A DNA stretch of 38,769 nucleotides from an uncultured Candidatus Saccharibacteria bacterium (lineage in GTDB: Bacteria > Patescibacteriota > Saccharimonadia > Saccharimonadales > Saccharimonadaceae): contig CAMJDZ010000006.1 of NCBI GenBank assembly GCA_946404545.1, positions 1 to 38,769 of the forward strand. Direction: 5' to 3'. Position numbers and translations under genes: made by a program. Positions 26,602 through 35,377 of this stretch are shown piece by piece. Every line of letters starts with the position of its first letter. The stretch's first letter is position 1. Below the pieces are notes generated by a model that was given only the letters and a program-made list of their open reading frames with translations, was not told the origin of the DNA and did not search any database.

Positions 26602-27027
26602 TTAGTCGACAACTTCGACGCCCATCGAGCGTGCGGTGCCGGCAATAATCTTGCAAGCGCCAGCTTCGTCGATAGCGTTGAGCTGACCTTTCTTGACCTC
26701 AGCGATTTCCTTGATCTGAGCCATGGTAATCTTACCAACTTTCTCAGTGTTTGGACGACCGCTGCCTTTTTCGAGCTTGATCTTTTCGCGGATCAAATCG
26801 TCAACTGGCTGGCCAAGGCACTTCCAATCGAAAGTGCGGTCATCATAGACAGCAATGTGAACAATCACATTCTTGCCCATGAATTCTTTGGTGGCTTCGT
26901 TGAATGGGTTAATGAAGTCCATCATATTGAGACCCCACTGACCGAGCGTGCTACCTACTGGAGGACCGGCCGTCGCCTTACCACCAGGGATGCGCAACTT
27001 CAAGTTGCCAATAACCTGTTTTGCCAT
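26602..27027 (-). CDS. rplK: Ribosomal protein uL11
   Basis: A 141-residue uL11 of normal length. The N-terminal domain binding factors has LKLRIPGGKATAGPPVGSTLGQWGLNMMDFINPFNEAT, and the C-terminal rRNA-binding domain has GSGRPNTEKVGKITMAQIKEIAEVK and AGTARSMGVEVV. It forms the base of the L10-L7/L12 stalk. In most bacteria it follows nusG and precedes rplA; here nusG is 7.8 kb upstream beyond an accessory island and a cdsA-like gene precedes rplA. The ATG follows AAGGAAAA. The leader holds two inverted repeats. Confidence 0.96.
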   Translation of the reverse strand: MAKQVIGNLKLRIPGGKATAGPPVGSTLGQWGLNMMDFINPFNEATKEFMGKNVIVHIAVYDDRTFDWKCLGQPVDDLIREKIKLEKGSGRPNTEKVGKITMAQIKEIAEVKKGQLNAIDEAGACKIIAGTARSMGVEVVD

Positions 27028-27041
27028 GTTATTAATTTTCC

Positions 27042-27084
27042 TTTTGCCGGTATTTGAAGCGCTTCACCGGCGATTACGATTAAT
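27042..27084 (-). promoter_or_regulatory. Structured leader of rplK
   Basis: The mRNA leader has the near-perfect palindrome ACGATTA-T-TAATCGT, then GCCGGT...ACCGGC enclosing GAAGCGCTTC. These could form hairpins just before the ribosome site; a ribosomal-protein autoregulation leader is possible but not proven. Confidence 0.45.
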
Positions 27085-27104
27085 AATCGTGCGTAACGCG
27101 GTCT

Positions 27105-27110
27105 ATTATA
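27105..27110 (-). promoter_or_regulatory. -10 promoter element of rplK
   Basis: Minus strand TATAAT (27105-27110) preceded by CGG, giving a start near 27098 and a leader of about 70 nt. Confidence 0.55.
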
Positions 27111-27148
27111 CCGGATTTTGGCGTTTTTTGCAAGGAGAAGGTGCCCTA

Positions 27149-27177
27149 TTGAAAAAAATAGCAAAATATGGCATAAT
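27149..27177 (+). promoter_or_regulatory. Promoter of the nucleotidyltransferase-like gene
   Basis: TTGAAA (27149-27154), 17-bp spacer ending in TGG, CATAAT (27172-27177); leader of about 30 nt with AAAGGGGG. Confidence 0.75.
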
Positions 27178-27214
27178 AACATCACTGTTGTACATTACAA
27201 GAAAGGGGGATTTT

Positions 27215-28375
27215 ATGGTTAACTATCTAAAGCCGTATATCGAAACACGTTACGAAGAGGCCGAGCCGGATTCCTGTCAAAGGAAGTCGGCTGCGATGAG
27301 GATTTGTGATTATCTCAAAGATCCTTCAGGATCAAAGAGAGTCGATTATTACAAAGCCTGCACTGAACTATTAAGAAAACCGGAAGCAAGGCGCCTTGCG
27401 CTGTATCTTCCACTTAGTACGCTCGAAGCGGCGCCCAGGGAATTTATAGATGTATACCGCGATGCATGGTATGAACTCTTGTATGTCTATGACGTGCGGG
27501 AAAATTTCCATTTTGGCGACTGTTTCGAAGTCGATGCGCGACCGGAAGAAGGTTTGCAGCGAGTATCGAAGTCTGCACACTTGACTCCATGGTTGCTCAA
27601 GAATAGCTACATTTCGGCGTATGAGCTTCAGACAATCATTGAAGGGGCTAGTCGCAGAAATAACTACATCATGTTGCAGAGCTTCAAAGATGTGATGACC
27701 TACTGTGTCGAGCAGAATCTAATCAAGCAGAAAGACCGTATTGAGAAAATTCGCGAGATACTGTGCTATTTACCCAATCGTACACGCCAGGAACCGCTCT
27801 ACGTCTCAGAAAGCCGTAAGAAGTGGCTTGACGAGAAAGGGCAGCCATTCGTGGCTCTCACGCCATGCGCGAAGCTGGAAGGACCGTTCTCGGATAATCT
27901 GCACATCATAATGCCTAGGCTGGAAGAAATCGCGTCTTCGCTTGAGCCGGAAAAAGTCGTGTTGGTGAACGGTTCGCTGATAAAGGGTTACGCCAGCGTA
28001 AACTCTGACATCGATCCGTATCTGCTCGACGATTTACTCGTAGTCGGGAAGTACTATCCCGGCAACTCAGAAGGCATTCATATCTACTATGATAGTGTTT
28101 GGTTGGGAGGTTCGAAGGCGCAGGAGCGCATGGAAGTCGCAAGACGCGCCGTCATTGCAAGATATAAGGATATCGACGAGTTTGCTCGTCGTCGCTGCAT
28201 TGAAAGGCTTGAGAGTGATCTTTTGCTGTATCGTCTGCTCCACAAGGGATTCGCTAGATTCTACAATTGGAAGGGAAATGGCATTCCTAAGGAAATGGAC
28301 GGCGATTGTCCGTTCTATGACGATGAATACCGTAAAATCGCCACAATGCTCTTTGCTAAATACGTTTGGCTATAA
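27215..28375 (+). CDS. Protein with a minimal nucleotidyltransferase motif (386 aa)
   Basis: A 386-residue soluble protein. The first 240 residues are mostly helical and not recognised (LYLPLSTLEAAPREFIDVYRDAWYELLY; RKSAAMRICDYLKDP). At about 248-275 is VVLVNGSLIKGYASVNSDIDPYLLDDLLVVG, which fits the DNA polymerase-beta type nucleotidyltransferase pattern GS-x10-DxD (G253 S254, D265, D267). The third carboxylate cannot be placed with confidence. Such domains transfer an NMP to proteins, RNA, drugs or toxins. ATG 27215 follows AAAGGGGG. The gene faces the four-gene operon across a shared terminator. Its link to that operon is by position only; a HEPN partner, common for MNT toxin-antitoxin pairs, is not seen. 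Confidence 0.7.
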   Translation: MVNYLKPYIETRYEEAEPDSCQRKSAAMRICDYLKDPSGSKRVDYYKACTELLRKPEARRLALYLPLSTLEAAPREFIDVYRDAWYELLYVYDVRENFHFGDCFEVDARPEEGLQRVSKSAHLTPWLLKNSYISAYELQTIIEGASRRNNYIMLQSFKDVMTYCVEQNLIKQKDRIEKIREILCYLPNRTRQEPLYVSESRKKWLDEKGQPFVALTPCAKLEGPFSDNLHIIMPRLEEIASSLEPEKVVLVNGSLIKGYASVNSDIDPYLLDDLLVVGKYYPGNSEGIHIYYDSVWLGGSKAQERMEVARRAVIARYKDIDEFARRRCIERLESDLLLYRLLHKGFARFYNWKGNGIPKEMDGDCPFYDDEYRKIATMLFAKYVWL

Positions 28376-28385
28376 AAGGGCAAGA

Positions 28386-28416
28386 AAAAGACCCCCGTAC
28401 TTGGGGGTCTTCTTTT
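28386..28416. terminator. Bidirectional terminator
   Basis: Perfect 9-bp hairpin AAGACCCCC-GTACTT-GGGGGTCTT with an A-run before and T-rich sequence after; between the convergent nucleotidyltransferase-like gene and the four-gene operon. Confidence 0.9.
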
Positions 28417-28439
28417 GCGTTTTGATTTTACTTTGGAAA

Positions 28440-29687
28440 TTACAGAATATCACTGCCGGTGATGCTCTTTCCTCCTCTGCTTCTCTTGAGGCCGAGAGAA
28501 TTCCAGTCAATCTGAGAGCCGAGGCTCCAAAGTGATGCCAAATAGCGCACTTCAAGATCCGGCGAAACTTCGTCCAGCTTCACGAATGCGAGAACATACT
28601 GTGAGAGAGCCTGCTCGAGGCGTACGTAGGAACCAGAAACGTCCAAATTGAGCTTCTTGAGCATATTTTCGCGGTTTTCTGCGCCAAGTAACTTCGGAAG
28701 ACGATTATCGTTAAGACGCGAGAGAATATCTCTGGCGACAAGGGCTAAGGCGGAAGCGGACTGTATGCCGCAGCCAGCGAATGTCTTGTTAATTTTGTTT
28801 ACGAACTCATCTCTTGCTGCGCGCAATGCGGCAGTATCCGGCGGCTGCATCATGCCGAGACCTGCGTTTCCTCCAGTGATGACGGCAGCAAATGCCATCA
28901 TATCAGAGAAACTATCCTTGTATGTAGAATACCAGCTATCGAGGGCGCGGAAACTAGTAACAATCGCCGGCAAGAAGAACTCATCGACTCTCCGGAGGAA
29001 CTGTTGACGGCGCTGCTTATTGATAATTGTTCCATTGCAACCCTTGATGGTTGCGAAGATGTCGGAATAATCATGGCGCGTCAGCATGTCGCAGAAGCTA
29101 TAGAATACCTCAGTATCTACAGGTTCATCGATGGACAAAGAATATTTTTCCATCTCATCAATAATGGTGCTAGGAGCATCGTATAAGCCAACCTTTGCGG
29201 CTAATGCGGCCTTGATTGCAGCGATATACGTAGCGTCGTTGACTCTAAGTACACCGCCCGTCTTCAGGCTTTCCAGCCACGCATCATCTGCCGGTACGGC
29301 CGGGAGAATCGCGCTTACTGCGCCGGGGAAGACAAAACCTGAGGCGGCATTGGGTGTCGCTGCGGGCTTAGCTTCGGTCTGGAAATCACTGATAAGCTTA
29401 CGTGCTTTAACGAGCTTCATGCCGGCTCCTACCAGGTCGCTATCGTTCAGCTGCTTCAGGTCATCGACGGTTTCAACGCCGAGATCGAGAATCTTCTGAA
29501 TCGTGGCACTGTCTGCGCCGTACTCTGTAAGCTTCTGTTCAACAGGGCTTGCTGCAGTGGGCGTCGGTGCCGGAATTGCGGGTGCCGGTGTAGCGTCTAC
29601 GACCGGAGCATCGGGTGTTGCGGGGTCTGCTGCAACTACTTCTACTACAGGTTCTTCTGCTGTTGTGTTCTTAATCTCTTCACTCAT
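28440..29687 (-). CDS. Accessory protein with a SAM-like helical domain, operon gene 4
   Basis: A 415-residue protein. Residues 1-60 are low complexity (A/P/V/T/E-rich linker or disordered tail). Residues of about 62-110 (VEQKLTEYG...ILDLGVETVDDLKQLNDSDLVGAGMKLVKARKLISDF) look like a SAM-like or helix-hairpin-helix domain. The remaining 300 residues are largely helical, with a small G/N/M-rich region (AVITGGNAGLGMMQPP), and are unfamiliar. The C-terminus is basic (GLKRSRGGKS). A SAM domain usually mediates oligomerisation or nucleic-acid contact. It is last in the operon: ATG 29687 follows AGGAGGT, and the stop TAG of the PurA-like gene is part of TAGGAGG, so translation is coupled. Confidence 0.65.
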   Translation of the reverse strand: MSEEIKNTTAEEPVVEVVAADPATPDAPVVDATPAPAIPAPTPTAASPVEQKLTEYGADSATIQKILDLGVETVDDLKQLNDSDLVGAGMKLVKARKLISDFQTEAKPAATPNAASGFVFPGAVSAILPAVPADDAWLESLKTGGVLRVNDATYIAAIKAALAAKVGLYDAPSTIIDEMEKYSLSIDEPVDTEVFYSFCDMLTRHDYSDIFATIKGCNGTIINKQRRQQFLRRVDEFFLPAIVTSFRALDSWYSTYKDSFSDMMAFAAVITGGNAGLGMMQPPDTAALRAARDEFVNKINKTFAGCGIQSASALALVARDILSRLNDNRLPKLLGAENRENMLKKLNLDVSGSYVRLEQALSQYVLAFVKLDEVSPDLEVRYLASLWSLGSQIDWNSLGLKRSRGGKSITGSDIL

Positions 29688-29698
29688 GGCTATACCTC

Positions 29699-30949
29699 CT
29701 AAATGAAATCTTGGGCGCGTAATCTGTCGCGCTCTGTTGGGCCAATTGAGAGTAATTCTAGAGATAAACCAATGCGCGAATCGACGATTTTCTCGACGAA
29801 ACGCCAAAGGTCTATTCCGGTTAGTTTGGAATCGATCGGGATAACGTCGTCGTTGATTTTCCAGCTTCCCATTTCGAGAATCTGGTCAAACCAAGTCAGG
29901 CACAACCCATCGAAACTCGTGTCTTTGCATGCCGCGAGGGCATGCTGGATGAGGTTGATGTCGAGAGGACCGGCACGTACTTCGCCTTGCCAGCGATTAT
30001 TCGCTTTATGGCTATCGGGAAGCATTTGCTCGGTAAACTCTGGGTCGTATGTCGGCATTGGGCCAGCACCATGCCTAATTTCATAGGCGCGATGTACGGC
30101 ATAATGCCTAATTCGACCGGTAAAACCGGCATTTCTCATCATCTCTTCTGTGAATTTCGGTAGGGTGCGAATGGCGCTAGTGTGCGGCTTAAAGCCCTCT
30201 ACTGCGTCAGTTAAAACACCGTGCGAACATTCTATTACAGCAGAACCATCGTGATTGTTGATTGCTTCAGATAAGGATGTAATGCTAAGCATTTGGCCTA
30301 CTTTCTCAAATTCATTGATGTTGTAGTCCAAGAAGCCGTCATCATTAAGCAAATCGAAGCATTCCGCGACGTGTTCCGCGTCTTCGTCCAGATAATTTTC
30401 GGGCTTGTATTGATAGCAAGCTCGGTAAAATTTGAGTTGTGCGAAAAGTTTATCGGCAATCTTATTGTGGTCAGTCAATTCGCGGGCGCGAATTGACATT
30501 TTGTCTCCAGATTGCTGAAACATGCGGTAAGCCTGGCCAACGCCAGTACCGATTGTGCCGCGCGGATTCTTTCCTCGGAGAAGCTCATTCAATCGTGAGG
30601 ATATCCAGTGGAAAGGGGTAGCGCAGATGCATTCTGGGTCGCAGCTGAGAAGCCGGAAAGGATCAATAACCCCATCGTGCTCTAAAGCTCTTGACTCATT
30701 AATAAGGCCAATAGGCATGATAACGAGTTGCGGTGACAGAAATGTCGGAATCGCTTCAAAAGTGCCACATCCCCATTGGGAAAAATTAAAATTTTCACCG
30801 TTGGAACAGCGAACACCGTGCGAACCTTGTGCTCCGCCACGCTTAATGACTAATGAAATGTCATCTTCGTTGCAGAAAACATTTACGACCTTGCCTTTAC
30901 CGCCGTCACCCGGACCGAGGTCTGTAACGATACTTACATCATTAAGCAT
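29699..30949 (-). CDS. Divergent adenylosuccinate synthetase (PurA) paralogue, operon gene 3
   Basis: A 416-residue protein with the PurA fold. GDGGKGK (14-20) replaces GDEGKGK and keeps the catalytic Asp. SHG (43-45) keeps the His that acts with GTP. GTIGTGVGQAY (131-141) replaces GTTGRGIGPAY, ECSHG (240-244) replaces EGAQG, RHGAGPMPT (292-300) is near normal and SIGP near the end matches STGP. The Arg-rich loop for aspartate (GRRRRTGWLD) reads QGEVRAGPLD, and LTKLD reads LTWFD. PurA ligates aspartate to IMP using GTP; by eye several IMP, aspartate and guanine contacts are changed, so a different substrate is likely. Phage PurZ is one known diverged relative, but I cannot equate them. ATG 30949 follows AGGAGGTG. 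It starts 23 nt after the vWA gene. Confidence 0.85.
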   Translation of the reverse strand: MLNDVSIVTDLGPGDGGKGKVVNVFCNEDDISLVIKRGGAQGSHGVRCSNGENFNFSQWGCGTFEAIPTFLSPQLVIMPIGLINESRALEHDGVIDPFRLLSCDPECICATPFHWISSRLNELLRGKNPRGTIGTGVGQAYRMFQQSGDKMSIRARELTDHNKIADKLFAQLKFYRACYQYKPENYLDEDAEHVAECFDLLNDDGFLDYNINEFEKVGQMLSITSLSEAINNHDGSAVIECSHGVLTDAVEGFKPHTSAIRTLPKFTEEMMRNAGFTGRIRHYAVHRAYEIRHGAGPMPTYDPEFTEQMLPDSHKANNRWQGEVRAGPLDINLIQHALAACKDTSFDGLCLTWFDQILEMGSWKINDDVIPIDSKLTGIDLWRFVEKIVDSRIGLSLELLSIGPTERDRLRAQDFI

Positions 30950-30972
30950 GGGCCTTCACCTCCTGGCGGGGG

Positions 30973-32082
30973 TTAAAGATACTTGATTATGTCAGCTACC
31001 GTTTCCTCGGCTTCTTCATCTTCCGTGAGTTCACCCGGCTGAATCGGCCAGAGGTCACCCTTCTTTGCGAAGATGTCACCGGCCTTTGGTACTGGGTGCT
31101 TCGTAGCATGTCTCAGCTTCGTCTGTGCGCCGATCTCGATATTGGAGAGCTGCTTGATCAGTTCAGAATCCATATCGTCTCCGAAACGTTCTTTCAGCTC
31201 TGTTATCTCGACAGTACCTTCAGTAAGCCCGATAATCGCTGATAATATCATCGGCAACTTCTCAGTTGAATCGATGAGGATTACGGATTTTCTGCCATAA
31301 AGGTCACGATAGCAATCGTAGGCTTCACCTGAATGACGATGGTAGCGGTTGTTTACGATTAACACGAACGCATGAGCTTTATCCTTGAGGTCGCTAACGA
31401 CGCCGTTGATTGACTTTATCGCGCCCTTCATTTCTTTGAGCTCTTTATCAAAGATATTTTCGCCAAAGATACGCTTAATTTGCCTTTCGTCAATATCGTA
31501 ATGGCAGGGCTCATCAGTAATGATGAAATGGTAGCCCTTCAGTCCGATGTTGTTCGTGTATGCATTTGTAAGATAAGCGCGCGCGAACATAGAGTACTGA
31601 GGATCTTCGCCGCCATTACCGCCTCCGGCTCGTTGCGGAGCCATTGCATTCAGATATCTTACAATCTTTGGCGCCTCCATCTCGAATTGTGGCCTGCACA
31701 AAACAAAGTCATCCTCGCAGTCTCCAAAGATGCCTAAGCAAAGCTGTGGGTCGCATCCCGGAAGAACCTTCGAAATCGCATCATACATGTCGGGCAAAAC
31801 CCTCATTTGATTATCGACTTCGTCTTGCATTGAGCCAGTAGTATCGCAGCTCACCTCGATATCCATCGGACAGCCGAGCTTCGCTACCCAATGTTTCTTT
31901 TCGGCTACTAGCCTTATCATCGAGTAACGAACCGGCTTAATGGCTGGATCAACAATTGGATTCAGCTTACCGGATTCGCGAGCTTCTAGCTCCGCCGTTG
32001 CGGTAACACCGTTATCGTCCGTAATGCCTAAATCCTCACGTGCTTGCAAATAATCGCTTTTAGAAAATACTCTTTCGCCCAT
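30973..32082 (-). CDS. vWA (MIDAS) domain protein, operon gene 2
   Basis: A 369-residue protein with a von Willebrand A fold. The metal-ion site DTTGSM (80-85, a DxTGS MIDAS variant) follows MDIEVSC. Later family elements are LGIFGDCEDDF, GGGNGGEDPQ (153-162) and FIITDEPCH (186-194), which match vWA proteins paired with kinase-like partners in bacterial accessory operons. The first 70 residues are unfamiliar and the C-terminal third has an acidic tail (EDEEAEETVADIIKYL). It is soluble with no transmembrane helix. The ATG overlaps the stop of the kinase-like gene by one base (TAATG) with AGGAGG in the preceding codons, so the two proteins are produced together. Confidence 0.82.
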   Translation of the reverse strand: MGERVFSKSDYLQAREDLGITDDNGVTATAELEARESGKLNPIVDPAIKPVRYSMIRLVAEKKHWVAKLGCPMDIEVSCDTTGSMQDEVDNQMRVLPDMYDAISKVLPGCDPQLCLGIFGDCEDDFVLCRPQFEMEAPKIVRYLNAMAPQRAGGGNGGEDPQYSMFARAYLTNAYTNNIGLKGYHFIITDEPCHYDIDERQIKRIFGENIFDKELKEMKGAIKSINGVVSDLKDKAHAFVLIVNNRYHRHSGEAYDCYRDLYGRKSVILIDSTEKLPMILSAIIGLTEGTVEITELKERFGDDMDSELIKQLSNIEIGAQTKLRHATKHPVPKAGDIFAKKGDLWPIQPGELTEDEEAEETVADIIKYL

Positions 32083-32894
32083 TATTCTTCCTCCTCTTTT
32101 TGTTTCTGCCAGGCGATTGTTCCGCGGACGCGGTAAGTAAACGGATAATACACTCCACGTCCCCAGAGCTCACTAGCGAGCGCATAGAGATCGGAGTGTG
32201 CATCGTAAAACTCACTGCGACCATGTTCTGAAAAATCTTTGAGCAGATTGTATAATCTCTGCTCGGCTTCATCATTAACGACTATCCATTCGAGGAAAAA
32301 CTTCGCAATTGCCTTGATATGACCGTCGGCAATCGAGTCGTCATCTCCACCAGAATAGTTGTAATAGATTACGCGGTGGCGTTCTGGCCCGATGAGGAAA
32401 TCCTCTGGGTAGAAATCCGGGTATCTGGCGACGGTCTCTTCTCCATCCATTTTGTCCTTCTCGAACAAGATATAAAACTTCAGGATTCGTCCCATCATCC
32501 AGACACAGCTGCGTGCGTCGATTTCGTAATCAGCCTTTAGCTTCGAAAGAGGAAGCAATTTGCTGAGCTTCGTATCTGGCGCACGGTAAACATTGATCCT
32601 TCGGTCACCTTGAGACGCTTCGACAAACGTCGACAAAAGGCTGGCAAACAGTAAGTCAAAGCGCGAACGTTTCCCGCCACCAAGGCTGGTTTCGTACTCG
32701 TCTATCTCCTGACTGTTCGCGGCTAAGCGAGTAAATGTCGCCGCATCTTCATTGAGAACGTCGTTATCCTCAAAAGTCTTGGCAACTTTCAGAATAACGG
32801 GCCCATCTTTGTCCGAATTACCAAGGTAGACCCTAAACCTCTTCGTTTGTGCAAAGAAGTCGTTCGGGTCGACTTCGATACCTCGAATCTTCAT
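32082..32894 (-). CDS. Kinase-like protein, probable pseudokinase, operon gene 1
   Basis: A 270-residue protein whose order of elements follows a protein-kinase fold. VILKVAK (33-39) fits the beta-3 strand with Lys36, and LNEDAATFTRL (47-57) fits helix C with a Glu/Asp. YPEDFLIGPERHRVIYYNYSG (162-182) fits the catalytic loop and metal strand. In related bacterial proteins this block reads HGxxxPexvLihPexHxvvLvDWxyS. Here the HG positions are changed and the DFG/DW Asp is Asn (YYNY), so catalysis is doubtful. It is first in the operon with vWA, PurA-like and SAM-like genes. The start at 32894 follows AAGGAAG. It is very likely a partner or scaffold for the vWA protein rather than an active kinase. 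Confidence 0.62.
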   Translation of the reverse strand: MKIRGIEVDPNDFFAQTKRFRVYLGNSDKDGPVILKVAKTFEDNDVLNEDAATFTRLAANSQEIDEYETSLGGGKRSRFDLLFASLLSTFVEASQGDRRINVYRAPDTKLSKLLPLSKLKADYEIDARSCVWMMGRILKFYILFEKDKMDGEETVARYPDFYPEDFLIGPERHRVIYYNYSGGDDDSIADGHIKAIAKFFLEWIVVNDEAEQRLYNLLKDFSEHGRSEFYDAHSDLYALASELWGRGVYYPFTYRVRGTIAWQKQKEEEE

Positions 32895-32943
32895 GTTGCA
32901 TCACTTCCTTCCATATGTAAAATCAAAACTGTAAAATAACAAA

Positions 32944-32959
32944 ACTCCTCTTGAGGAGT
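32944..32959. repeat. Palindrome between divergent promoters
   Basis: ACTCCTC-TT-GAGGAGT, a perfect 7-bp inverted repeat. It covers the predicted 5' end of the four-gene operon mRNA, and its position between two divergent promoters fits either an operator or a 5' hairpin. Confidence 0.55.
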
Positions 32960-32968
32960 ATCTCTATA

Positions 32969-32977
32969 ATTATAACA
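32969..32977 (-). promoter_or_regulatory. Extended -10 promoter of the four-gene operon
   Basis: Minus strand TGT-TATAAT, hexamer 32969-32974; predicted start near 32962 and a leader of about 68 nt. Confidence 0.65.
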
Positions 32978-32992
32978 TATTTTTGCAGATTA

Positions 32993-33001
32993 TGCTATAC
33001 T
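32993..33001 (+). promoter_or_regulatory. Extended -10 promoter of the P-loop/CYTH gene
   Basis: TGC-TATACT, hexamer 32996-33001, divergent from the operon promoter 20 bp away. Leader of about 58 nt carrying AGGAGG. Confidence 0.65.
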
Positions 33002-33065
33002 ATATCCGGACGTCGGGAAGGATTTTTCCTGATGTACTTTAAAACGGTTACAGGAGGTGATTTAT

Positions 33066-34190
33066 TTGCTGAACAAAAAGATCTGTAAGTTTGTACTTAC
33101 GGGTGGTCCTTGCGGTGGCAAAACGTCGGCGTTGAGCTGGATCTCGAACTTCTATACGAAGCTCGGCTGGAAGGTTCTCATAGTAAACGAAGCAGCCACG
33201 GAACTCATTACGTCGGGAATAAAGCCGACACATTTCAAGGATCCGCTGTATTTTCAGGAGATGATTCTTAAGACCCAGCTCGCAAAGGAAGAGCGCATGA
33301 CGCAGGCGGCACTCATGATGGAGAACGAAAAAATCATGATTGTTTGCGATCGTGGGCTTTATGATAACAAGGCCTATGTTAGCCCAAGCGAGTTCGAACA
33401 GGTCGTAGCTCGTGTTGGGCGCGGGGTAGTGTCTGCCGCAGTCGCCGAGTATGATGCCGTATTTCATCTTGTCACGACAGCCGATGGCGCAATTGAGTGT
33501 TACACGTTGCAGAATAACGATGCGCGCTCAGAGACGCCCGAAGAGGCTGTTAAGCTTGACGTGAAGACGCAGAATGCCTGGGTTGGCCATCCGCACCTGC
33601 GCATTATCAAGAACGAAGGCGATCTTGACACGAAGTTGAAGACGTTGTTGAAGCAGATATCCGTAATGCTTGGCGAGCCGATGCCCTATGAAATAGAGCG
33701 CAAGTATCTGATCAAGATGCCTGATCTCGACTATCTGCGCGCGCTGCCAAATTGCCAGGAAGGCGAGATTATGCAGACCTATCTTAAAGGCGACTTATTT
33801 GATGACGAAGTTCGTGTCCGTCAGCGTGCATATGGTGGAGATTTTATCTTTACCAAGACCATCAAGCGTAGCACGAGCGACAAGGCCGTCAGAATCGAGC
33901 TCGAACGTCGTATCAGTCGCGAAGAATATGTTAGCGAACTGATGAATGCGATCCCGGGACTGAACTCGATTCACAAGAATAGATTCTGCATCATGCAGCG
34001 CGATTCGGGTCAGTATCTCGAGATAGATATTTACCCGACCTCTGATGAATTTGCGATTCTCGAGGTAGAATTTGTATCTCCCGATGGCAAGCTGATTGCG
34101 CCCGATTATCTTGAAGTCATCAAGGAAGTTACCGATGACGAGAGGTATTACAATCGCAATATCGCCGCCAACGGCAACTGTTTACCGTAA
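33066..34190 (+). CDS. P-loop kinase-CYTH fusion protein
   Basis: A 374-residue fusion. The N-terminal P-loop domain has TGGPCGGKTS (12-21, Walker A), IMIVCDRGLYD (90-100) and an AAA_28/NadR-kinase-like layout. From about 205 a CYTH (triphosphate tunnel) domain begins with EIERKYLI (ExExK signature, 209-213), then VRVRQRAYGGDFIFTKTIKR and IELERRISREEY with the usual acidic and basic tunnel residues. CYTH domains bind triphosphates; this fusion architecture is also known in animal Ttd14-like proteins. Start TTG 33066 sits 8 nt after AGGAGG; an in-frame GTG at 33057 overlaps that site. It shares a divergent promoter region with the four-gene operon, suggesting joint control. Confidence 0.85.
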   Translation: MLNKKICKFVLTGGPCGGKTSALSWISNFYTKLGWKVLIVNEAATELITSGIKPTHFKDPLYFQEMILKTQLAKEERMTQAALMMENEKIMIVCDRGLYDNKAYVSPSEFEQVVARVGRGVVSAAVAEYDAVFHLVTTADGAIECYTLQNNDARSETPEEAVKLDVKTQNAWVGHPHLRIIKNEGDLDTKLKTLLKQISVMLGEPMPYEIERKYLIKMPDLDYLRALPNCQEGEIMQTYLKGDLFDDEVRVRQRAYGGDFIFTKTIKRSTSDKAVRIELERRISREEYVSELMNAIPGLNSIHKNRFCIMQRDSGQYLEIDIYPTSDEFAILEVEFVSPDGKLIAPDYLEVIKEVTDDERYYNRNIAANGNCLP

Positions 34191-34197
34191 AAACATT

Positions 34198-34225
34198 AAA
34201 CCCGCTCAATTTGAGCGGGTTTTCT
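34198..34225. terminator. Bidirectional terminator
   Basis: AAACCCGCTC/GAGCGGGTTT hairpin, followed on either strand by T-rich sequence; between the CYTH gene and the 159-aa gene. Confidence 0.85.
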
Positions 34226-34239
34226 GTTGCTGATGGGGG

Positions 34240-34719
34240 TTAGTCGTACTTTTCGCGGAAAGCTTCCTTGATTTTCTGTTGTATATAAATAGAATTAACG
34301 ATACTTACTCCGCCCAACTTGTCGGCTTTCTGATTAGTCTCGTAGCATACTGTTATATCTAATAAAACTAATGGATCTTCGAGTCTGACGTCTTCGCCTT
34401 CGTCGAAATTCGGGGCAATACGAATTGTATTTATGCCGCCATTCGCGAAGAGTTCTTCAAGCCTCCTCGCGAGCCTTCTTGTTTTGCTAGTACTAATATC
34501 TCTGTAGTTCGTGAGATAAGTACAGAACAACTCGGTTGGAGCTGCAGCTAAATCTGACCCGAGCCTATATTTTCCTTTTACAATGATGATAGTTTCTCCG
34601 TCATCATTGATATTCCCGAGTGTTTCTGAGATAAGATCAATCGATTTTTCCATAATCTTGTCGCTAGCTTCGCTGTATTGCGAAGATAACGACTCGGTAT
34701 TCATAACATGTAGTTTCAT
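34240..34719 (-). CDS. Accessory protein of unknown function (159 aa)
   Basis: A 159-residue soluble protein. It has an N-terminal helical part (YSEASDKIMEKSIDLISETLG), a beta strand pair (ETIIIVKGKYRLG), a basic segment (STSKTRRLARRLEELFA), then strand-rich DPLVLLDITVCYET and a C-terminal helix (QQKIKEAFREKYD). No family recognised. ATG 34719 is preceded by AGGAGG; the promoter is excellent (TTGACT-17-TATAAT). Together with the CYTH gene it closes the nusG side of the accessory island. Confidence 0.65.
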   Translation of the reverse strand: MKLHVMNTESLSSQYSEASDKIMEKSIDLISETLGNINDDGETIIIVKGKYRLGSDLAAAPTELFCTYLTNYRDISTSKTRRLARRLEELFANGGINTIRIAPNFDEGEDVRLEDPLVLLDITVCYETNQKADKLGGVSIVNSIYIQQKIKEAFREKYD

Positions 34720-34749
34720 ACGGAACCTCCTAAGGTACAAGATAGTAAT

Positions 34750-34778
34750 ATTATAACACCCCCAATCAGAAAAGTCAA
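34750..34778 (-). promoter_or_regulatory. Promoter of the 159-aa gene (TTGACT-17-TATAAT)
   Basis: Minus strand -35 TTGACT (34773-34778), 17-bp spacer ending TGT, TATAAT (34750-34755). It begins about 8 bp past the nusG terminator. Confidence 0.9.
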
Positions 34779-34785
34779 GGACATC

Positions 34786-34811
34786 AAAAAGCCACCAACT
34801 GAGTGGTGGCT
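34786..34811 (-). terminator. Terminator of secE-nusG
   Basis: Minus strand AGCCACCA/TGGTGGCT hairpin followed by TTTT. It separates nusG from the accessory island. Confidence 0.85.
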
Positions 34812-34825
34812 CTTTGGTAGACTAA

Positions 34826-35377
34826 TTAATCGTCAATCTTCTTGACCTGAAGAGCGTCAAGCTCGACAGCGGTTTCGCGGCCAAACATGGAGACGAGAAC
34901 CTTGAGTTTACCCTTGTTGGAGTCAATCTCAGAAATCGTACCTTCGAAGCCCTTGAATGGACCATCGGTAACGGAGACGACCTCGCCAGCAGAGTAGTTG
35001 ACGGTGAACTTTGGATCATCAACGCCCATGCGCTTCTTGATCTTCTCAATTTCCTTCTTGGAAACTGGGGTTGGCTGAGTGCCAGTACCGACGAAGCCGG
35101 TAACGCCTGGGGTGTTGCGGATAATATACCAAGTGGCATCGGAGAGCTTCATTTCGACGAGCACGTAGCCCTGGAAAATCTTTTTCTCAACGATACGGCG
35201 CTTGCCGTTCTTGATATCAATTTGCTTTTCTTTTGGTACCATTACGTCGAAAATCTTGTCGGCGAAATCGATACTGTCGAGGCGCTGGCGAATCGAGTCA
35301 GCAACCTTGTCTTCGTAGCCGGAGTAGGTGCTCACAGCGTACCAAGCGCGCGTACCATCATAACGGTTAACGGCCAT
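34826..35377 (-). CDS. nusG: Transcription antitermination factor NusG
   Basis: A 183-residue NusG. The NGN domain starts WYAVSTYSGYEDKVADSIRQRL and contains IFQGYVLVEMKLSDATWYIIRNTPGVTGFVG. The KOW domain is GEVVSVTDGPFKGFEGTISEIDSNKGKLKVLVSMFGRET. It binds RNA polymerase and couples transcription with translation or Rho. It lies just 3 nt downstream of secE and is cotranscribed. A hairpin terminator closes the secE-nusG unit, so rplK is not in the same transcript here. Confidence 0.97.
   Translation of the reverse strand: MAVNRYDGTRAWYAVSTYSGYEDKVADSIRQRLDSIDFADKIFDVMVPKEKQIDIKNGKRRIVEKKIFQGYVLVEMKLSDATWYIIRNTPGVTGFVGTGTQPTPVSKKEIEKIKKRMGVDDPKFTVNYSAGEVVSVTDGPFKGFEGTISEIDSNKGKLKVLVSMFGRETAVELDALQVKKIDD

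Follow-up and report, generated by a model that had tools for sequence, protein, structure and literature searches.

In Escherichia coli, adenylosuccinate synthetase (PurA) transfers a phosphoryl group from GTP to O6 of IMP, a step driven by Asp13 and His41. The IMP phosphate is held by Thr129, Arg131 and Arg143, and aspartate by Arg303 and the Thr300-Thr301 loop. The related enzyme PurZ carries Ser at position 13, and a 2026 tree of phage PF00709 proteins defines it by this residue (PMC12884076). Systems that combine an ADP-ribosylglycohydrolase with a Nudix regulator and a vWA chaperone have also been described (PMC9503650). We analyzed a 38,769-nucleotide stretch of DNA (the window) from an uncultured Candidatus Saccharibacteria bacterium, which contains a gene for a PurA-like protein. 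The main point beyond a preliminary description of this gene is that its product is one component of a conserved system of three genes (the triad): J-domain/pseudokinase, vWA and PurA-like.

The PurA-like protein has the whole fold of PurA and keeps Asp13, Lys16, His41, Asp333 and Gly416 (E. coli numbering). It differs from PurA in that its clade, which is separate in the tree and coupled to vWA and pseudokinase genes, has other residues at the IMP-phosphate and aspartate-carboxylate positions, lacks Arg303 through a deletion and has His for Val273. PurZ and PurZ0 offer a likeness as phage PurA-fold enzymes with a changed substrate (Z 33 to the PurA-like model); however, PurZ keeps the tip of the aspartate loop, which the clade has lost, and the partner genes differ. 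With the vWA chaperone and conflict systems (MoxR-vWA, TerY-type and those of PMC9503650), the triad has in common a vWA protein with an intact MIDAS and a putative NTP-dependent enzyme, but it has no MoxR ATPase or phosphatase core, and its enzyme is PurA-like. The TerY-P triad (vWA, kinase and PP2C phosphatase) was considered and rejected: the third gene here is PurA-like, and no PP2C was present among the first 25 recurrent neighbour families. A Nudix-HTH regulator in some triad loci and an ADP-ribosylglycohydrolase gene in one Patescibacteria locus (L160) recall the PMC9503650 systems, which are a thematic parallel without a PurA-like enzyme. The terms "adenylosuccinate" and "PurA" were both absent from the texts of PMC9503650, PMC7159879 and PMC7824862.

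In PHROGs, the window protein (P0001) and gp263 of mycobacteriophage Sebata both matched phrog_1211, and the vWA and kinase partners from the window and Sebata matched phrog_2971 and phrog_3043; all three are mycobacteriophage gene families. PHROGs, however, lists them as unrelated, assigns the vWA family no known function and gives the enzyme a PurZ-like name. Phage records annotate the enzyme of this clade as PurA-like or as "2-aminooxy adenylosuccinate synthetase". The papers searched, which included few subscription titles, contained no account of the triad. The PurA-like enzyme is a novel version of the PurA fold, and the three-gene system may be more than that.

The gene and the motifs of its product, as aligned with E. 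coli PurA, are located as follows.

29699..30949, minus strand: PurA-like gene (416 aa), the main subject, identified by ORF, PF00709, residue alignment and AF2 fold.
30890..30910, minus strand: P-loop-like GDGGKGK, residues 14-20; Asp15 corresponds to E. coli Asp13 and Lys18 to Lys16, both kept.
30818..30820, minus strand: His44, corresponding to catalytic His41 and kept; in GGAQGSH, Gln41 replaces Asn38.
30527..30559, minus strand: GTIGTGVGQAY, residues 131-141, replacing the IMP-phosphate segment GTTGRGIGPAY.
30206..30232, minus strand: ECSHGVLTD, residues 240-248; Gln224 changed to His.
30059..30076, minus strand: RHGAGP, residues 292-297; clade-invariant His293 (55/55) where E. coli has Val273.
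29960..29992, minus strand: WQGEVRAGPLD, residues 320-330, replacing the aspartate loop TTGRRRRTGWLD; Arg303 deleted (55/55).
29885..29896, minus strand: TWFD, residues 352-355; Lys331 changed to Trp, Asp333 kept.

The coordinates given in the preliminary description were correct, with the ORF on the minus strand; the plus strand across 29699-30949 is full of stops. The protein matched PF00709 with 99.7 bits (E=2e-28; cut-off 27 bits), and a PDB sequence search matched PurA chains at no more than 56 bits. Scores with the NCBIfam purA/PRK equivalog models were 28-67 bits, below cut-offs of 368-700 (for example, 62.1 vs 395.55 bits and 66.8 vs 402 bits). The gene had been called a paralogue of purA. 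This label is wrong for the source genome (801 kb, 94.6% complete), because no other PF00709 gene was found there; the gene is a lone homologue. A scan of genome contigs gave only two close relatives.

Residues were compared in an alignment of 55 clade members, E. coli PurA, four canonical PurAs of relatives and S-2L PurZ. The catalytic Asp13 and His41, reported earlier as kept, were present together with Lys16 (D15, H44 and K18 in the window), and each of the three is kept in 53-54 of the 55 members (Asp13 in 53/55). Most of the residue changes proposed earlier were borne out. In the TTGRGIGPAY segment, T129 is changed to I and R131 to T, with T128 kept; clade-wide, Thr129 becomes Cys, Val or Ile, and Arg131 and Arg143 are lost, Arg131 being variable also in two of the four canonical PurA relatives aligned. 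The Gln of EGAQG is His in the window (ECSHG, Q224->H), and position 224 is Gln in 33/55 and His in 22/55 members, most of those outside Saccharibacteria retaining Gln. The aspartate loop is changed from ATTGRRRRTGWLD to NRWQGEVRAGPLD (T300->W, T301->Q, R303 deleted); in the clade, Thr300 is replaced by Trp, Phe or Tyr, Thr301 by Gln (53/55), and Arg303 is deleted in every member. The view that the guanine motif TKLD was changed as a whole was half right, because Lys331 alone is replaced and the GTP-discriminating Asp333 is kept, here and in 54/55 members. N38->Q (Gln in 52/55), the loss of R143 and V273->H had not been noticed before. The PurA ligands Thr129, Arg131, Arg143, Thr300, Thr301 and Arg303 are all replaced or deleted, and the clade signature comprises Gln38, His273, [WFY]300-Gln301-Gly and the Arg303 deletion.

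It had been proposed that shifts in a careful alignment might show the residues to be conserved. Alignment with PurA and PurZ did not restore them, and the changes were common to the 55 homologues. Because they are conserved over these homologues and purifying selection acts on the gene (dN/dS = 0.17, vs a 95%-identical relative), the replacements are not alignment slips; they are held across the whole clade and are therefore not drift in one protein. Judged from the alignment, the gene is a true relative of PurA in which the predicted substrate-holding residues are swapped for the clade's own conserved set.

The AF2 model of the protein had a pLDDT of 95.5 and gave Z 30-40 with PurA structures and Z 27-34 with PurZ/PurZ0; the best matches were E. 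coli PurA entries (Z 40, 379 residues aligned, 21% identity). Over aligned columns, the protein shares 23% identity with E. coli PurA, 27% with Sebata gp263, 31% with a Rhodococcus copy and 15% with S-2L PurZ. In the tree, the clade was split from canonical PurA and PurZ on a long branch with support 1.000, and S-2L PurZ, the one PurZ included, grouped with canonical PurA across that branch. The parallel with PurZ drawn in the preliminary description holds as an analogy only: PurZ has Ser13 (PMC12884076; S-2L PurZ aligned), whereas the clade has Asp13.

Two other groups of sequences were noted. Three IMG/VR "viral" contigs (L069, L070 and L071) carry saccharibacterial-type copies (57, 40 and 44% identity) inside the saccharibacterial branch, and they are either viruses of Saccharibacteria or misfiled host contigs. 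Saccharibacteria also have a second PurA-like variant, divergent and unaccompanied by vWA or pseudokinase genes, at L047:6775-8220 and L048:6564-8039, with a contig-edge fragment at L050:1-753. Its neighbour is an ABC-F-type gene of 547 aa that encodes two ABC ATPase domains. Both complete copies have lost the P-loop Asp and Lys, and one has also lost the catalytic His; judged by these losses, the variant is a probable pseudoenzyme.

In the window, the two partner genes lie upstream of the PurA-like gene on the same strand; start and stop codons of the triad overlap or almost abut, and there are Shine-Dalgarno-like sequences. The same block was found in ~17 loci of genus relatives, usually together with an HhH/SAM-like gene downstream and a nucleotidyltransferase-like gene in convergent orientation. 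The features of the block outside the PurA-like gene are listed below.

30973..32082, minus strand: vWA-fold gene (369 aa) with conserved MIDAS DxTGS and Asp190, from AF2, fold search and homologue alignment.
32082..32894, minus strand: pseudokinase-like gene (270 aa) without the J domain of its homologues, from homologue alignment.
28440..29687, minus strand: Saccharibacteria-specific companion gene (415 aa) with a weak N-terminal helix-hairpin-helix/SAM-like match.
27215..28375, plus strand: convergent Saccharibacteria-specific companion gene (386 aa) with a GS..KGY...SD.D motif.
28388..28411, strand unassigned: strong stem-loop between the convergent genes, an intrinsic terminator.

Outside Saccharibacteria, the best phage matches were in ~190 cluster C mycobacteriophages. 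Sebata has the same gene order, with gp260 (kinase), gp261 (hypothetical) and gp263 (PurA-like); gp261 matched the window vWA protein with E=2e-8, and gp260 the kinase-like protein with E=7e-10. The full triad was also present on actinobacterial and proteobacterial plasmids, megaplasmids among them (Rhodococcus, Tsukamurella, Variovorax, Agrobacterium, Acetobacter and Rhizobium), and in three more Patescibacteria genomes, and a vWA-PurA pair in Vibrio phages, Rhizobium phages and a Methylorubrum megaplasmid. A profile scan of IMG/VR gave 316 matches, 80 of which were kept; 57/80 had all three genes, and 19/80 had the vWA and PurA-like genes. Viral contigs, phages and plasmids that had no less than 4.5 kb of upstream sequence gave 70 non-redundant loci; the vWA gene was present in 70/70 and the pseudokinase gene in 53/70. 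Gene order in phages was mostly pseudokinase-vWA-PurA, with the pseudokinase or vWA gene after PurA in some. The association was also seen from the vWA side: a plasmid search with the vWA protein alone returned 21 records, 20 of them from the same strains as the PurA-like search, and phage searches with the two proteins gave equal numbers of Mycobacterium, Rhizobium and Vibrio records. These findings show that coupling of the clade to the vWA protein is near-obligatory and that coupling to the J-domain pseudokinase holds in most loci. In one Patescibacteria genome (G199; L159:5088-10184), three vWA-family genes, one of them a fragment, surround a single PurA-like gene.

The AF2 model of the vWA protein matched integrin I-like domains (Z ~15 over 190-200 residues), and its MIDAS residues (DxSxS/T...D) were nearly invariant among homologues. 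It had no Pfam vWA match, and sequence profile searches of the PDB found no relative, although the fold search did. The N-terminal HPD motif of a J domain was present in 45-46 of 54 non-saccharibacterial kinase-like homologues; the HRD Asp was lost in 53/54, and the DFG Phe was changed to Trp in 51/54. The saccharibacterial copies have lost the HRD His and DFG as well and have no J domain. By these residues, the kinase-like partner is predicted to be a pseudokinase. PADLOC matched none of the five cassette proteins of the window, and for the vWA, pseudokinase, HhH and NTase-like proteins the NCBIfam and Pfam searches were uninformative.

The saccharibacterial version of the triad has lost the J domain and gained two lineage-specific genes. 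All five cassette genes are under purifying selection (dN/dS 0.06-0.24). The motif of the 386-aa companion (27215..28375) is weakly suggestive of a Pol-beta-type nucleotidyltransferase, and the stem-loop at 28388..28411 possibly terminates transcription in both directions. The genes nusG and rplK lie ~7.8 kb apart in the window (26602-35377) and in its closest relative (G008), with the block and other genes between them; the gap is 55-370 bp in G013, G018, G031 and G042 and ~1.4 kb in G002 and G003. In other carriers, the block occupies other genomic sites. This variable spacing, together with the presence of the block elsewhere, indicates that it is an inserted mobile or horizontally acquired cassette. 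A 377-aa ORF at 33057-34190, which by eye has a P-loop ATPase-like N-terminus and a CYTH-like triphosphate-binding C-terminus, adjoins the cassette in the window and in L030.

Genes related to NAD occurred beside several triads. An NrtR-type NUDIX-WHD gene lies downstream of the triad in Rhodococcus and Tsukamurella, upstream on the opposite strand in Agrobacterium, Acetobacter and Rhizobium, and also in the Patescibacteria locus L160 and several phage loci. The gene order in L160 (1-13000) is NrtR, cytidylyltransferase-like, pseudokinase, vWA, a 317-aa gene without a Pfam match, PurA-like, isochorismatase-family, NAD-kinase-like and ADP-ribosylglycohydrolase; in L161, a pyruvate-kinase-like gene stands between the PurA-like and vWA genes in place of the 317-aa gene. 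Neighbour clustering placed a NAMPT-type gene beside five phage copies (by Pfam for the L104 copy) and a NADAR-type family (by eye; annotated so in L062) beside four. Pfam families counted over 145 phage and plasmid neighbours included NAPRT/NAMPT, TROVE, R2K ATP-grasp, radical SAM and AAA, none of them dominant. NAD-type neighbours were absent from the window and from most phage loci. The background was an RNR-centred control set of only 7 loci; because this set is too small, the association is taken as suggestive only. It suggests, but does not prove, that the substrate or trigger of the triad belongs to NAD/ADP-ribose metabolism.

From the residue pattern, we consider it probable (roughly 60%) that the PurA-like protein is a GTP-dependent ligase-type enzyme acting on a substrate pair other than IMP and aspartate, with chaperone-like vWA/pseudokinase partners and possibly a place in NAD/ADP-ribose biology. 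The catalytic set for GTP-dependent phosphoryl activation of oxygen (Asp13, Lys16, His41 and Asp333) is intact, and the substrate residues are lost; this combination points most strongly to a reaction in which GTP serves for activation and an amine is ligated, with a different substrate pair. The preliminary description had proposed the same chemistry with a different substrate or nucleotide. The first part agrees with the kept catalytic residues and the clade-wide replacement of the IMP/aspartate residues, but with Asp333 retained in 54/55 members, GTP probably remains the nucleotide. The fold could instead be a catalytically silent or GTPase-switch part, regulatory or scaffolding, of a vWA/J-domain chaperone complex that performs no ligation. 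The loss of substrate-binding residues and the degeneracy of the partner kinase are in keeping with such a role, and the loss of P-loop and His residues in the two ABC-F-adjacent relatives makes a non-catalytic role possible for the fold. We regard it as a minority reading, however, given Asp13, Lys16 and His41 in 53-54/55 members and a newly gained invariant pocket set (His273 and Gln301), which suggests a selected ligand site.

An ordinary adenylosuccinate synthetase that binds IMP and aspartate through relocated residues would have the same fold and catalytic residues, and the gene is the sole PF00709 gene of its genome. Yet Arg303 is deleted in 55/55, R131 and R143 are lost, the equivalog cut-offs are missed by a wide margin, the canonical PurA of saccharibacterial relatives keeps nearly all the usual motifs, and coupling to vWA is obligatory, unlike that of canonical purA in E. 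coli; such an activity is unlikely. PurB (TIGR00928) had no match in the triad genomes, but this absence does not discriminate, because three relatives with canonical PurA (G047, G070 and G083) also had none; in these, either the lyase is divergent or the pathway is incomplete. A PurZ/PurZ0-type enzyme, which would convert dGMP and aspartate to 2-aminoadenylosuccinate for Z-DNA, is suggested by the names in phrog_1211 and RefSeq phage records ("2-aminooxy adenylosuccinate synthetase"). It is very improbable here: the clade keeps Asp in 53/55 (Asp15 in the window) where PurZ has Ser and is without the aspartate-loop residues of PurZ, PurZ groups with PurA in the tree, and no datZ/mazZ-type partners were found among the recurrent neighbours.

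For a ligase on a different substrate pair, the kept residues suggest that GTP would activate a carbonyl or lactam oxygen, to which an amine would then be ligated. The lost 5'-phosphate site would fit a nucleotide without a free 5' phosphate, such as a dinucleotide or an ADP-ribose-like or macromolecule-linked one. The metal site of the vWA protein may bind a protein partner and the J-domain pseudokinase may recruit Hsp70, so that the pair would deliver, fold or gate the enzyme or its target. As a tentative and rather doubtful extension, the PurA-fold ligase might add an amine to, or otherwise modify, an ADP-ribose-type or macromolecule-linked nucleotide presented by the vWA/J-domain pair; large phages, megaplasmids and epibiotic bacteria would use the triad in NAD-centred conflict, and the extra saccharibacterial genes would redirect it.

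The clade described here is a third one of the PurA fold, found in ~190 sequenced mycobacteriophages and 316 IMG/VR matches and mostly annotated as the ordinary enzyme, whose substrate residues are missing from it. Together with its partner genes it occurs in very small host-dependent bacteria, on megaplasmids and in large phages numbering in the hundreds. The three-gene context makes its role accessible to tests, and cluster C mycobacteriophages and Rhodococcus megaplasmids offer experimental access without Saccharibacteria culture. In the triad, a nucleotide-ligase fold is combined with a chaperone-like pair (vWA and J-domain pseudokinase). With this clade, the chemistry of the PurA fold would reach past IMP and dGMP, and the triad may be relevant to NAD-based phage-bacterium contests.
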